Below, in pieces: positions 17,131-60,438 of a stretch of 64,000 bases of DNA. Below the pieces are notes generated by a model. The model was not told where the DNA came from. It saw only the letters and a list, made by a program, of their open reading frames with translations, and searched no databases. Positions within the stretch are counted from its first letter, which is position 1; each line of letters starts with the position of its first letter. The DNA comes from Geothrix sp. (GTDB lineage Bacteria > Acidobacteriota > Holophagae > Holophagales > Holophagaceae), in assembly GCF_020622065.1 (NCBI RefSeq), contig NZ_JAHRYQ010000001.1, positions 992,001 to 1,056,000 on the forward strand, in the 5' to 3' direction. A program made the translations under genes and the position numbers.

Positions 17131-17159
17131 AAAAACGAGCGCCCAGGGGGCGCTCGTTT
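17131..17159. terminator. Bidirectional rho-independent terminator
   Basis: A perfect 9-bp stem CGAGCGCCC/GGGCGCTCG with a 3-nt loop (17136-17156) is flanked by AAAAA on the left and TTT on the right. It serves the kelch gene on the plus strand, and on the minus strand the tRNA-Leu gene, which ends eight bases away and there gains a T5 tract. Confidence 0.88.
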
Positions 17160-17708: not shown

Positions 17709-18740
17709 CTACATCCAGAGCCCCGTGAGGTTGGGGGTCTGCAGCGCGCGATGCACGGCCTGGGCCCGTTCCACGAGGCGGATGAAATCCGAGGGCAGCA
17801 GGGCCTGTGGGCCATCGCTGAGGGCCTTCTCCGGGTTGCAGTGGGTCTCCACCAGCAGGCCGTCAGCGCCCGCGGCCACGCCCGCCAGCCCGCAGGGGAT
17901 CACCAGGTCGCGGCGCCCGGTGGCGTGGCTGGGATCGACCATCACGGGCAGGTGGGTGAGGGCCTTGGCGGCGGGCACCACGCTGACATCCAGGGTGTTG
18001 CGGGCGTGATCGGACCAGGTGCGGATGCCGCGCTCGCAGAGCACGACATTCCGGTTGCCTTCGCCCAGCACATACTCGGCGGCATAGAGCCATTCCTCAA
18101 GCGTGGCCGAGGGGCCACGCTTGAGCAGCACGGGCTTGTGGCAGCGCCCCGCCCGGCGCAGCAGGGCGAAGTTCTGCATGTTGCGGGCGCCGATCTGCAC
18201 CATGTCGGCGCTGCGTTCCACGGCATCAAAGGTCTCCACCTCGGTGGCCTCGGTGACGACGCCCAGGTCGAATTCCTTGCGCGCTTCCTCCAGCAGGCGC
18301 AGACCCTCGAGTCCCAGGCCCTGGAAGGCGTAGGGGCTCGTACGGGGCTTGAAGGCGCCGGCCCGCAGCAGCTTGACGCCGGTCTCCGCCACATAGCGAG
18401 CCACGGTGAAAAGTTGTTCGCGGCTTTCCACCCCGCAGGGACCGCCCACCAGGACCAGATCCGGGCCGCCGATCTTCACGCCGCGCACCTCCACCACCGT
18501 GCGGCCCGCCACGGCGTCCGCGCTGGCCAGCTTGTAGGGGCTGGTGATGGGGACGACCCGGCGCACCCCGGCCATGGGCTCGATGCGGTCGGGCTTCAGG
18601 GCCTTGGAGGCGTTCGGCGCCACGATGCTGAGGGCCTCGGGCGTTTCGTTCACCTGGCTGCGGATGCCCGCCGATTCGAGCAGGGCCAGCACCTCGGCCA
18701 CCTGGTCCGGCGTGGCGGAGGGTTCCATGAGAATGAGCAT
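17709..18740 (-). CDS. aroF: 3-deoxy-7-phosphoheptulonate synthase (type I-beta DAHP synthase)
   Basis: A 343-residue enzyme condensing phosphoenolpyruvate and erythrose 4-phosphate, the first step of the shikimate pathway. Residues 1-70 form the ferredoxin-like regulatory domain found in Thermotoga-type enzymes (MLILMEPSATPDQVAEVL), which usually mediates Tyr/Phe feedback. The barrel shows LVGGPCGVESREQ (metal-binding Cys), GAFKPRTSPYAFQGLG, VLLKRGPSATLEEWL, CERGIRTW and MVDPSHATGRRD. It probably forms an operon with secG and tRNA-Leu. Confidence 0.93.
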   Translation of the reverse strand: MLILMEPSATPDQVAEVLALLESAGIRSQVNETPEALSIVAPNASKALKPDRIEPMAGVRRVVPITSPYKLASADAVAGRTVVEVRGVKIGGPDLVLVGGPCGVESREQLFTVARYVAETGVKLLRAGAFKPRTSPYAFQGLGLEGLRLLEEARKEFDLGVVTEATEVETFDAVERSADMVQIGARNMQNFALLRRAGRCHKPVLLKRGPSATLEEWLYAAEYVLGEGNRNVVLCERGIRTWSDHARNTLDVSVVPAAKALTHLPVMVDPSHATGRRDLVIPCGLAGVAAGADGLLVETHCNPEKALSDGPQALLPSDFIRLVERAQAVHRALQTPNLTGLWM

Positions 18741-56628: not shown

Positions 56629-57510
56629 TCAGTGGTGGTTGAGGGCGCCTGTGCCGCCCAGGACCAGCATCACCAGGCCCAGGCCCAGGCAGTAGAGGGC
56701 GAACCCATTGAGGCGGGGCTTGCGGGTGAAGCGATCCAGGAGGCCGATGGCCAGGTAGCCCGAGATGGCCGCGGCGACCACACCGGCCACGCACAGCAGC
56801 CCGGGAGCCGCCGACCCGGCGGGGAAGGCCAGTTCCGCGGGCAGGGGCTGGTGCTTGAACAGGGGCTTCAGCAGGCCGCGGAGCTCCACCACGGCGGCCG
56901 CGGCGATGGTGGGCATGCCGAGGAGGAAGCTGAAGCGGGCCGAGGCGGGAAGGCGCAGGCCCTGGAACACGCCCATGGCGATGGTGGAGCCCGAGCGGGA
57001 GAGCCCGAAGCCCCCGCCAAGGCCCTGGATGGTGCCGACGGCCAGCGCGTCCGAGGCCCGCAGGTCGCCGATGCCCCGGCCCGCCTGATCCTCGCTGAGC
57101 ATGTTGTTGCGCTCGCGGCTCATCCGGTTGGCGAGGAAGAGCAGGCCCGAAGTGCAGAGGAGGCCGATCCCGTAGACCCAGAGGTGCTCCTTGGCAGCCT
57201 CCTTCACCCCGCGGGTGGCCAGCCCGAAGATGCCCGTGGGGATCATCGCCAGGAACAGCCAGAAGGCCAGCTTGCGGCCCTCCGCATCCCGTCCCAGACA
57301 CCCCATCACCAGCTGCACCAGCTCCCGGCGGAAGTAGACCATCAGCGCGATGAGCGTGCCCCCGTGGAGCAGCACATCGAAAGCCAGCGGCATAGGGCGC
57401 CCCCCGAACATCAGGTGCTCGGCCAGGGTGAGGTGCGCGGTGGAGGAGACGGGCAGGAATTCCGTCAGGCCCTGGATCAGACCCAGGAGGATGGCGTGCA
57501 ACAGATTCAT
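56629..57510 (-). CDS. uppP: Undecaprenyl-diphosphatase UppP (BacA)
   Basis: A 293-residue inner-membrane enzyme with about eight helices that recycles the C55 lipid carrier of wall synthesis. Diagnostic motifs are LIQGLTEFLPVSSTAHLTLAEH (catalytic Glu17 region) and GGGFGLSRSGSTIAMGVFQGLRL. The protein is also known as BacA because overexpression gives bacitracin resistance. It is separated by 106 bp from the downstream ABC operon on the same strand. Confidence 0.94.
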   Translation of the reverse strand: MNLLHAILLGLIQGLTEFLPVSSTAHLTLAEHLMFGGRPMPLAFDVLLHGGTLIALMVYFRRELVQLVMGCLGRDAEGRKLAFWLFLAMIPTGIFGLATRGVKEAAKEHLWVYGIGLLCTSGLLFLANRMSRERNNMLSEDQAGRGIGDLRASDALAVGTIQGLGGGFGLSRSGSTIAMGVFQGLRLPASARFSFLLGMPTIAAAAVVELRGLLKPLFKHQPLPAELAFPAGSAAPGLLCVAGVVAAAISGYLAIGLLDRFTRKPRLNGFALYCLGLGLVMLVLGGTGALNHH

Positions 57511-57547
57511 TCAAGCTCCGGCGCAAAGAACCAGTGTGCCAGAGCGG

Positions 57548-57958
57548 TCAGGATTCCCGGGGCATCGACCTCAGGATGGCCAGGTACTCGCGGTGCTCTT
57601 TCCAGCCCCGCACCATGGACAGGGCCCCCCATATTTGGATGAGGAGGATGAGGATCACCAGGCCGACGGCCGTGAAATGGCCGAACAGTCCCCAGTCCTG
57701 GGGCAGGGACGGTGCCGATGCCCTGAAACGGAAGAGGAAGAGCGGAACGAGCCTGAGGATGCACTGGCCGACCAGGACCGCATAGACCCGGGCTTCCTCG
57801 ATGCCGCGGATGGCCCAGGGCAAGGGCAGGAGATAGAGCAGGGGCATCGACAGAATCCAAAGAGGGGGAGGGCAGAGCGCCGCCTGGGACCGGTTCGCCT
57901 GCAGGAAGCCTGAGGCGAAGGCATAAAGGGCCGCCAGCAGGACCCCCATGAGGAACAA
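57548..57958 (-). CDS. C-terminal half of a split tandem-duplicate membrane protein
   Basis: A 136-residue open frame with three to four hydrophobic helices. It matches the C-terminal half of the intact neighbour at 58273-59022: compare PLLYLLPLPWAIRGIEEARVYAVLVGQ here with LPWLYLLVAPWWIKGVEEARAYLVLVGQ there, and the ends RGWKEHREYLAILRS and RGWREHRGYRSLLLS. It lies in the same frame as the N-terminal half at 57995-58276, separated only by one TAA and 12 codons (ERRRWFWILGLA) that also match the intact copy. A TTG or ATG (57949) restart would be needed for it to be made; otherwise it is part of a pseudogene. Confidence 0.6.
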   Translation of the reverse strand: MFLMGVLLAALYAFASGFLQANRSQAALCPPPLWILSMPLLYLLPLPWAIRGIEEARVYAVLVGQCILRLVPLFLFRFRASAPSLPQDWGLFGHFTAVGLVILILLIQIWGALSMVRGWKEHREYLAILRSMPRES

Positions 57959-57994
57959 CGCGAGGCCCAGAATCCAGAACCAGCGCCGGCGCTC

Positions 57995-58276
57995 TTAGGT
58001 CCTATCGGGCGAGGCCTTCACGGTGCCGAGGCCCCGGTAGAGCGCCCGCCCGGCCAGGCCCTTGAGGGCGAGCCAGAGGAGGGGGATCCAGATGAGGTAC
58101 TCGATGAGCAGGCGGCCCGTGGCACGGGCGCCCATGAAGTCCGGGCTCAGCGCGGCGAGGACCAGGAGCACGGCCATCAGGCCCCCGAGGGCCGTGGCCA
58201 GCCCGCTCTTGCGGGCCTGGAAGACGGCGTAGTCGCGCGTGAGGGTGATCAGGGCATCGAGATTGGGGGCAGTCAT
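57995..58276 (-). CDS. N-terminal half of the split duplicate membrane protein
   Basis: A 93-residue frame from ATG 58276, coupled to the intact copy (ATGA overlap at 58273-58276). MTAPNLDALITLTRDYAVFQARKSGLATALGGLMA aligns with LTHDYADFDTRKSGLATALGGVMA of the intact copy, and LLWLALKGLAGRALYRGLGTVKA with LLWLPLKQLLFHWLYRGLGPVRA. A TAA at 57997-57995 replaces the codon expected for a His in the intact copy. Without it the product would be about 242 residues, against 249. It is probably a recent nonsense lesion, but could be a truncated functional protein. Confidence 0.65.
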   Translation of the reverse strand: MTAPNLDALITLTRDYAVFQARKSGLATALGGLMAVLLVLAALSPDFMGARATGRLLIEYLIWIPLLWLALKGLAGRALYRGLGTVKASPDRT

Positions 58277-59022
58277 GGCCGTTCTTCCTCGGGGGTGAGA
58301 GACAACAGGAGAGATCGGTATCCCCGGTGCTCCCGCCAGCCCCGCCGGATCGTCCTGAGGGCCCATATGAAGACGCCGATTTGGATTCCCAGGAAGACCG
58401 GAAGCAACCAGCCCTTGGTCGCCCGGCCGATGTTCGCCCCTACCTGGTTGAATCCGAAGGCGATCCAGATCACGCCCTGACCAACGAGGACGAGGTAGGC
58501 GCGGGCCTCCTCGACCCCCTTGATCCACCACGGGGCCACCAGCAGGTAGAGCCACGGGAGGACCGCGACCCATAGCCAGGACCTCCAGAGGGAAGGAAGC
58601 CTCGCCGGCAGCTGTGGGATGGTTTCCGGGCGCTGGAGGACGCCGGCGTATCCACTCACGAAGCCCAGGAGGGCGAGGGTCTGGAAGGTCATCAGGAACA
58701 GGGCGATGGCGAAGATCCAGCGCCACTTCCTCTGCTCGTGCGCCGCGTCCTGAAGGGCCCTCACGGGGCCCAGCCCGCGGTAGAGCCAATGGAAGAGCAA
58801 CTGTTTCAGGGGCAGCCAGAGCAGGGGCATGAGGAAGATCAGGATGGCCTGGAGGTGCCACCAGGGGCCGAGAAGCATTCTCGTGGCATGGGAGAACACA
58901 TGCAGGCTCATGATCAGGGCCATCACTCCGCCGAGCGCCGTGGCGAGGCCGCTCTTCCGGGTGTCGAAGTCGGCGTAGTCATGCGTGAGCGCTTCCAGCC
59001 TCTGGATGTCGATTCCGCTCAT
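58273..59022 (-). CDS. Membrane protein paired with winged-helix regulator, unknown function
   Basis: A 249-residue integral membrane protein with about six to seven hydrophobic helices and a soluble N-terminus (MSGIDIQRLEALTHDYADFDTRKSG). A positively charged stretch (RALQDAAHEQRKWRW, about 88-102) separates the first helix set from the second, suggesting an internal duplicated plan. It overlaps the regulator stop (ATGA at 59019-59022) and the next gene start, forming a tight three-cistron module. No transport or enzyme motif is visible. I do not recognise a named family. Confidence 0.75.
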   Translation of the reverse strand: MSGIDIQRLEALTHDYADFDTRKSGLATALGGVMALIMSLHVFSHATRMLLGPWWHLQAILIFLMPLLWLPLKQLLFHWLYRGLGPVRALQDAAHEQRKWRWIFAIALFLMTFQTLALLGFVSGYAGVLQRPETIPQLPARLPSLWRSWLWVAVLPWLYLLVAPWWIKGVEEARAYLVLVGQGVIWIAFGFNQVGANIGRATKGWLLPVFLGIQIGVFIWALRTIRRGWREHRGYRSLLLSLTPEEERP

Positions 59023-59342
59023 CGCCGGCCCTCCTCGGGCAACAGGGCCCGCAGCTGCTTGTGATAGGCCCTGAGGGCCGCCCGCCCATCCTCCGTGATG
59101 CGGAAGCTGGTGACGGGAATGCGGCCCTGGAAGGCCTTGACGGTCTCGAGGTAGCCGACCCCCTCCAGCTTCTGGGTGTGGCTCGAGAGGTTGCCCTTGC
59201 TCAGGCCGGTCACTCGCTGGAGGAAGAGGAAGCCCACCTCCTCCGCCGCCGCCAGCACGGTGAGGATGGCCAGGCGGGCGGGTTCGTGGATCATGCGATC
59301 GAGGCTGAGGATGGACTTGGGGGTGGTTCCGGTTTTAGTCAC
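59019..59342 (-). CDS. Winged-helix transcriptional regulator (HTH_34 type)
   Basis: A 107-residue DNA-binding protein with the PF13601-like winged-helix: DRMIHEPARLAILTVLAAAEEVGFLFLQRVTGLSKGNLSSHTQKLEGVGYLETVKAFQGRIPVTSFRITEDGRAALRAY. The start is probably GTG 59342, which lies inside a long palindrome; TTG 59357 and ATG 59294 are alternatives. Such small regulators are often co-encoded with membrane proteins, as here. Overlap of the palindrome with its own start codon suggests autoregulation (inference). Confidence 0.85.
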   Translation of the reverse strand: MTKTGTTPKSILSLDRMIHEPARLAILTVLAAAEEVGFLFLQRVTGLSKGNLSSHTQKLEGVGYLETVKAFQGRIPVTSFRITEDGRAALRAYHKQLRALLPEEGRR

Positions 59343-59373
59343 GAAACAAGTTTGCAATACAAACTTGTTTCGT
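59341..59373. promoter_or_regulatory. Perfect 14-bp-arm palindrome between divergent genes (candidate operator)
   Basis: ACGAAACAAGTTTG and its exact reverse complement CAAACTTGTTTCGT flank the 5-bp spacer CAATA. The sequence is AT-rich in an otherwise GC-rich region. It overlaps the GTG start of the winged-helix gene, and a likely promoter for that gene (TTGGCT, 16 bp, TATTGC on the minus strand) runs into it. Its right end is 37 bp from the threonine aldolase ATG. This is a strong candidate for a dimeric repressor site. Confidence 0.8.
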
Positions 59374-59409
59374 CAAGCCAAAAACCGACGCCCGTGATTG
59401 AATCTCCCC

Positions 59410-60438
59410 ATGCGACCCATCGACCTCCGTTCCGACACCGTGACCCAGCCTTCGAAGGAGATGCGCGCCGCCATGGCCGCTGCGGAAGTGGGTGACGATG
59501 TGCTGGAGCAGGATCCCACCCTGGCCCGGCTGGAGGGCCGTGTGGCCGACCTGCTGGGGTTGGAGGCGGCCCTGTGGGTGCCTTCCGGCTGCATGGGCAA
59601 CCTCATCGGCCTGATGCTCCACTTGAAGCGCGGCGACCGCTTCCTGGCGCCCGCCCAGGCCCATGTGCTGGGCGCGGAACTGGGCACCGGGGCCTGGCTG
59701 GCGGGCGGCATGCCCGAGGCCCTGGCCTGGGAGGGCGGGCCCGGCCGGCCCACACCCGCCCAGGTGACGAAGGCCGCCGGCGCTCCCGGCCCCTACTATG
59801 CGCTGCGCACGACGCTGCTCTGCCTGGAGAACACCCACAATTTCGCGGGCGGGGCCGTGACACCCCAGGCCGAGCATCGCGCCCTGGTGGCCGCCGCGAA
59901 GGCGGCGAAGCTGGCGGTGCACCTGGATGGCGCACGAATCTGGCACGCGGCCGCGGCGCTGGGGCTTCCGCCCTCGGCGCTGACGGAAGGCGTCGATACC
60001 GTGCAGGTCTGTCTCAGCAAGGGGCTGGGCGCCCCCATGGGGTCGCTGCTGGCGGGATCACAGGCGGCCATCGCTGACGCGCGGCGCCTGCGCAAGATGT
60101 TGGGCGGCGGCGTACGCCAGGGCGGCGTCGTGGGCGCGGCCGGGCTGGTGGCCTTGGACTACCTGCCCCGAATCACCGAGGACCACGCCAAGGCCCGGCG
60201 TCTCGCGGAGGGGCTGCGCGGCTTCGGCGTCGCCGCGCCGGTTCCCGAGACCAACATCCTGCTGGTGCCCGTGCCGGACGCGCCCGCGGCTCTGGCGGCG
60301 CTGGAAGGGGTCGGCGTGCGGGTCCTGCCCGTGGGATCGGCCATCCGCTTCATTCCGCACCGCGACCTGGAGATGGCCGACATCGAGGAAGCGCTGCGCC
60401 GCCTCGAGCCGCTGGCCCACCTGCTTCGCACCGCCTGA
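59410..60438 (+). CDS. ltaE: Low-specificity L-threonine aldolase
   Basis: A 342-residue PLP enzyme cleaving L-threonine or allo-threonine to glycine and acetaldehyde. The N-terminus [34 protein letters not shown] is diagnostic; Asp173 in [10 protein letters not shown] contacts the pyridine ring and Lys204 in [13 protein letters not shown] forms the Schiff base. The C-terminal small domain is intact. It is divergent from the winged-helix gene, with the palindrome in the shared spacer. Confidence 0.92.

Follow-up and report, generated by a model that had tools for sequence, protein, structure and literature searches.

LytTR regulatory systems (HdrRM, BrsRM) are widespread and activate their own expression, and their direct repeats lie upstream of the -35 element (PMC6193735). 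Autorepressors of the MarR, PadR and ArsR types share with the locus described here a winged helix, inverted half-sites, an operator over the core promoter and an autogenous location. For PF13601, HTH_34 or PH1061 (PDB 1ub9), no operator, target site or function was found in the open-access literature searched, with subscription journals mostly outside it. The locus was analysed in a window of 64,000 nucleotides from Geothrix sp., and all positions refer to that window unless a locus handle is given. The features considered are the following.

59341-59373, unstranded: perfect palindrome with 14-bp arms and a 5-nt centre, read directly from the sequence.
59344-59370, unstranded: candidate operator as kept in Geothrix, AAACnnGTTTG-N5-CAAACnnGTTT, in which the nn positions vary and symmetry is not kept.
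59350-59364, unstranded: candidate operator core GTTTG-N5-CAAAC, kept across genera and phyla.
59371-59376, minus strand: putative -35 element, read from alignment as TTGACG here and TTGACA in many orthologues; it overlaps the palindrome at the upstream end.
59349-59354, minus strand: putative -10 element CAAACT after a 16-nt spacer, a weak, tentatively placed hexamer identical to one operator half-site and 6 nt from the start codon.
59019-59342, minus strand: HTH_34 (PF13601) winged-helix regulator of 107 aa with a GTG start, from Pfam and structure prediction.
58273-59022, minus strand: MEM1, putative membrane protein of 249 aa, all-helical, its start overlapping the regulator stop.
57548-58276, minus strand: MEM2, a MEM1 paralogue overlapping MEM1, with an in-frame TAA at 57995-57997.
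56629-57510, minus strand: uppP/bacA (PF02673), co-directional with MEM2 and separated from it by 37 nt, preceded by a conserved element of its own.
59410-60438, plus strand: ltaE-like PLP-dependent aldolase (PF01212; best NCBIfam match NF041359, GntG family), the divergent neighbour.
59395-59403, plus strand: putative extended -10 element of ltaE, TGATTGAAT, 6 nt before the ATG and kept also in loci that lack the operon.

We consider, with a probability of about 0.85, that the palindrome serves the adjacent HTH_34 regulator as its operator, and that a dimer of this protein would repress the regulator-MEM1-MEM2 operon. The assignment of the site to this regulator is strongly supported by sequence comparison; dimer binding, repression as the sign of regulation and the promoter positions are what we infer.

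The palindrome reads ACGAAACAAGTTTG / CAATA / CAAACTTGTTTCGT, the arms being complementary at 14 of 14 positions (100%). Among perfect inverted repeats whose arms lie within 40 nt of each other it is the longest in the window, the runner-up (13 bp) lying at 18096; both the repeat and its rarity in the window, as originally noted, were borne out. The same prediction had it covering the regulator's GTG start (59342-59340), with which it in fact shares 2 nt without covering it. Further perfect short-loop inverted repeats occupy 18096-18125 (13 bp) and 17133-17159 (12 bp). Estimated from base composition, at a per-pair complementarity of approximately 0.28, perfect 14-bp arm pairs with a short spacer should occur approximately 0.01-0.05 times per 64 kb. 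The length taken alone is therefore mildly improbable, which is suggestive and not conclusive, so that the weight must rest on comparison.

The core, searched as RGTTTG-N5-CAAACY, had exactly one exact site in the whole 3.35-Mb genome (two contigs), and near-matches were at control level (95 versus 96 for a control pattern). Similarly, the 27-mer AAACnnGTTTGnnnnnCAAACnnGTTT had one exact genomic site, every other match being at least three mismatches away, and a whole-genome regulon search gave no second convincing operator site. As this appears to be the only strong operator site in the genome, the regulator would act locally, as a switch that controls itself and its membrane-protein partners.

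The regulator matched PF13601 with 80.1 bits (gathering cut-off 27) over residues 28-105 of a 112-aa reading, and this was the only Pfam family matching at E<=0.001. Its AlphaFold2 model is a winged helix (pLDDT 88). The top solved match was PH1061 (PDB 1ub9; TM 0.79/0.84, 32% identity), followed by MarR-type proteins, some of them DNA-bound, and then by the PadR protein Rv3488. MarR-type Pfam models gave no match at that threshold, the likeness to MarR lying in the fold only; the NCBIfam model HTH_metalloreg (ArsR/SmtB metalloregulators) stayed below threshold (22.9 bits, cut-off 55), and a Pfam search found no LytTR DNA-binding domain. Phage records held only two weak relatives. MEM1 and MEM2 are hydrophobic and helical; neither matched Pfam or NCBIfam above cut-off, and a structure search for the membrane protein found no solved fold (best E 0.69). 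Orthologues of MEM2 (e.g., L005 4079-4804) read through where the window has the TAA at 57995-57997, and the interruption here reflects either recent pseudogene formation or an error in the sequence.

Orthologues of the regulator (E <= 1e-49) were present in 23 of 47 Geothrix genomes. With at most two mismatches, the 27-mer motif was found in all 23, and in one (G005) of the 24 genomes lacking the orthologue; a reversed-pattern control gave no match in 77 family genomes. The G005 site, with the core down to 9/10 and adjoining a 33-residue stretch of regulator, is a decaying remnant. In every intact Geothrix locus measured, 7 nt separated the core end from the regulator start and 44-45 nt separated the core from ltaE, while the remaining intergenic DNA had diverged. 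Joint loss of site and regulator inside one locus is trivial evidence; changes in gene order matter more. In other Holophagaceae (G053, G054, G056, G059, G060, G063, G068, G070), one or more membrane genes lie upstream of the regulator, and the site fronts the first operon gene, 0.6-2.7 kb from the regulator; in G059, this first gene encodes a TraB/GumN protein. In G060 the operon is expanded (L089 2304-6830): a single operator precedes several MEM paralogues and two regulator genes, one of them intact and the other truncated.

In 297 genomes from the phylum, HTH_34 relatives were mostly preceded by a membrane-protein gene. In about half of these loci, a core matching at 9-10 of 10 positions stood directly before the membrane gene, approximately 590-810 bp upstream of the regulator; composition-matched shuffles gave a core match in 2.9% of upstream regions. 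Family groups of Acidobacteriota were scored with a symmetric consensus, which had been shaped by some of the sequences scored, and 10 of 16 had a site that was reached by at most 1% of shuffles, mostly lying 25-45 nt before the membrane gene. Likewise, bin522 and Zixibacteria carry the site. Of 15 plasmid-borne homologues from other phyla, seven passed p<0.01 upstream of the membrane gene and none did so in a control stretch inside that gene, the test not being blind since the 15 sequences had been inspected before scoring. Those that passed were from Thermomicrobium, a Chloroflexota bacterium, Actinomyces oris (two copies), Bacteroides, Natronosalvus, Hoyosella and Persicobacter. Two are less secure: in Natronosalvus the distance from the site to the annotated start is 145 nt, and in Hoyosella the match relies on a start earlier than annotated. 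No such site was seen at several of the homologues scored, e.g., those of ANME-2, Kocuria, Azospirillum, Sphingomonas, Streptomyces and Phocaeicola.

The core or a variant recurs at the front of membrane-protein/HTH_34 operons in other Acidobacteriota families, Chloroflexota, Thermomicrobiota, Actinomycetota, Bacteroidota and Zixibacteria, and possibly also in haloarchaea. A lack of conservation near orthologues had been named as what would speak against the original prediction; this comparison was run, and the motif proved strongly conserved in Geothrix, in other Holophagaceae, in Acidobacteriota and in other phyla. L134 (Acidobacteriota family f11) and L187 (Actinomyces oris) each have two copies of the operator, flanking the promoter or lying ahead of it, an arrangement that suggests cooperative binding.

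Across lineages, the core consensus is AGTYTG-YANNR-CARACT, with the variant ACTYTG/CARAGT. The half-sites take the forms GTTTG/CAAAC, GTCTG/CAGAC and CTTTG/CAAAG, and both sides change together between lineages, as expected of a dimer site; they are partly or wholly GTCTG/CAGAC in G051 (L094), G054 (L098) and G056 (L099). The nn positions behave differently. Position 8 from the centre was symmetric in 15 of 23 Geothrix loci, at chance level (14.2 when shuffled), and position 9 in 16 of 23 (12.2 when shuffled, p 0.03); an asymmetric example is L060, AAACCTGTTTG...CAAACCTGTTT. A long perfect palindrome as the selected unit was rejected, the nn positions varying freely. Because these positions are not kept symmetric, the 14/14 perfection of the arms is partly incidental here, and an RNA stem is not the conserved thing. 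The 5-nt centre (59355-59359) is CAATA in some Geothrix species and TATTG, its exact reverse complement on the same strand, in others; this swap may reflect either an inversion of the loop through template switching or simple substitution.

At the Geothrix loci and related ones, the site has TTGACA at its upstream edge; a spacer of 16-17 nt separates this hexamer from a CARACT half-site, which lies 6-7 nt before the start codon. These hexamers were picked by eye from alignments, and a sigma-70 consensus scan of the window found no promoter. A -10 element at this distance from the start codon implies a site over the core promoter and an mRNA without, or nearly without, a leader; the regulator mRNA may thus be leaderless. 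In family f42, TTGACA and TATAAT-like hexamers lie before the site, which covers the start region. Either placement is compatible with repression. The HTH_34 dimer would bind the inverted half-sites GTTTG and CAAAC between and over the -35 and -10 elements of its own promoter, block RNA polymerase and so repress the regulator-MEM1-MEM2 operon. The palindrome's predicted position over the regulator's likely promoter is thus matched by the putative elements read from the alignment, and the predicted autorepression of the regulator/membrane-protein operon gains support from a site that fronts that operon and appears to overlap -35/-10 or the start site.

That the operator is real and the regulator activates its own operon in the manner of LytTR systems, with the membrane protein as inhibitor, is suggested by the gene content, a soluble regulator together with a membrane protein as in the widespread, auto-activating LytTR systems (PMC6193735), and by the f11 loci, in which one operator copy lies upstream of a -35 element, a position open also to an activator. 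However, LytTR direct repeats lie upstream of -35, whereas nearly all lineages have the palindrome over -35/-10 or over the start site. As this overlap is found in most lineages, repression fits better, and we regard activation as improbable. The palindrome might instead work in RNA, as a hairpin hiding the start of the regulator mRNA, and the regulator-sense strand does fold well (-21.5 kcal/mol, z -5.55). Three observations oppose this: the transcription start would coincide with the start codon or lie just ahead of it, and the hairpin would then not be transcribed whole; nn is not symmetric in Geothrix, position 8 being at chance; and the site precedes other genes in other genera. The hairpin was rejected despite its good fold on the asymmetry of nn and the promoter location, and we give it hardly any credence. 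The site could also be the operator of another regulator, its link to HTH_34 being one of neighbourhood only; yet it stays with HTH_34 operons when gene order changes and, across phyla, when the neighbours are different, which makes this very unlikely. A transcription terminator was rejected as well, as none was found and the flanking genes diverge.

The divergent ltaE gene had been named as a possible second target of the palindrome. The two genes share the intergenic region, and the core-to-ltaE distance of 44-45 nt holds throughout Geothrix. Against such control, ltaE has a separate putative extended -10 element approximately 25 bp beyond the site; this element, TGnTTGAAT, stands 6 nt ahead of the ATG and is retained in Geothrix whether or not the operon is present, and so persists where site and regulator are missing. 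Moreover, the distance varies between genera (42-71 nt), and in other lineages the site is present without ltaE. On the far side of the operon, an element CTCTGGCACACTG-N3-CTTTG(T/C)GCC was seen upstream of uppP (57511-57547 and orthologous gaps), and it too is kept in Geothrix both with and without the regulator operon. In genomes without the operon, ltaE directly faces uppP. Since the ltaE and uppP upstream elements are kept in both arrangements, the regulator-MEM operon is a presence/absence cassette between two genes that each have their own control elements, which makes control of ltaE by the site unlikely; this part of the original prediction was not supported.

Genes for undecaprenyl-lipid or envelope functions recurrently adjoin the module, namely uppS in Gemmatimonadota and Aureimonas, uppP in Holophagaceae and creD in Bacteroides (L025 3288-3992; L184 1942-2640; window 56629-57510; L189 1803-3155).

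Autorepression by the HTH_34 regulator would assign an operator to a widespread regulator family for which the literature searched held no target site. In addition, a conserved membrane-protein/regulator operon is defined in many phyla, and the role of the largely unstudied HTH_34 family, with its target genes, becomes directly testable. The recurring neighbours uppP, uppS and creD point to a possible link to cell-envelope lipid handling. An autogenous operator is an ordinary kind of thing; the breadth of conservation is not. A wider reading, which we put forward tentatively, is that of a sensory module spread across the prokaryotes and sharing a single ancestral operator (AGTYTG-N5-CARACT / ACTYTG-N5-CARAGT), in which an autorepressing HTH_34 protein is paired with a multi-pass membrane protein that would sense the state of the envelope and release or capture the regulator, as a negative-feedback counterpart of LytTR systems.

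The Geothrix regulator has its domain and predicted fold in common with the PF13601 family and PH1061 (1ub9). Compared with autorepressors of the MarR, PadR and ArsR types, it is shorter (107 aa), matches none of those families above cut-off and has an unclassified membrane protein as its partner. LytTR systems (PMC6193735) likewise are widespread operons that join a soluble regulator to a membrane protein and carry a conserved site at their promoter. Their membrane protein inhibits the regulator; the co-directional, hydrophobic, helical protein present in the HTH_34 operon may or may not act in that way. They have a LytTR domain, direct repeats upstream of -35 and positive feedback, whereas in the HTH_34 module the domain is HTH_34, the site is a palindrome lying over the promoter, and the feedback is presumed to be negative. 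LytTR systems are the closest described arrangement of a regulator with a membrane partner, but the HTH_34 module is not a member of them, because domain, site type and site position differ.
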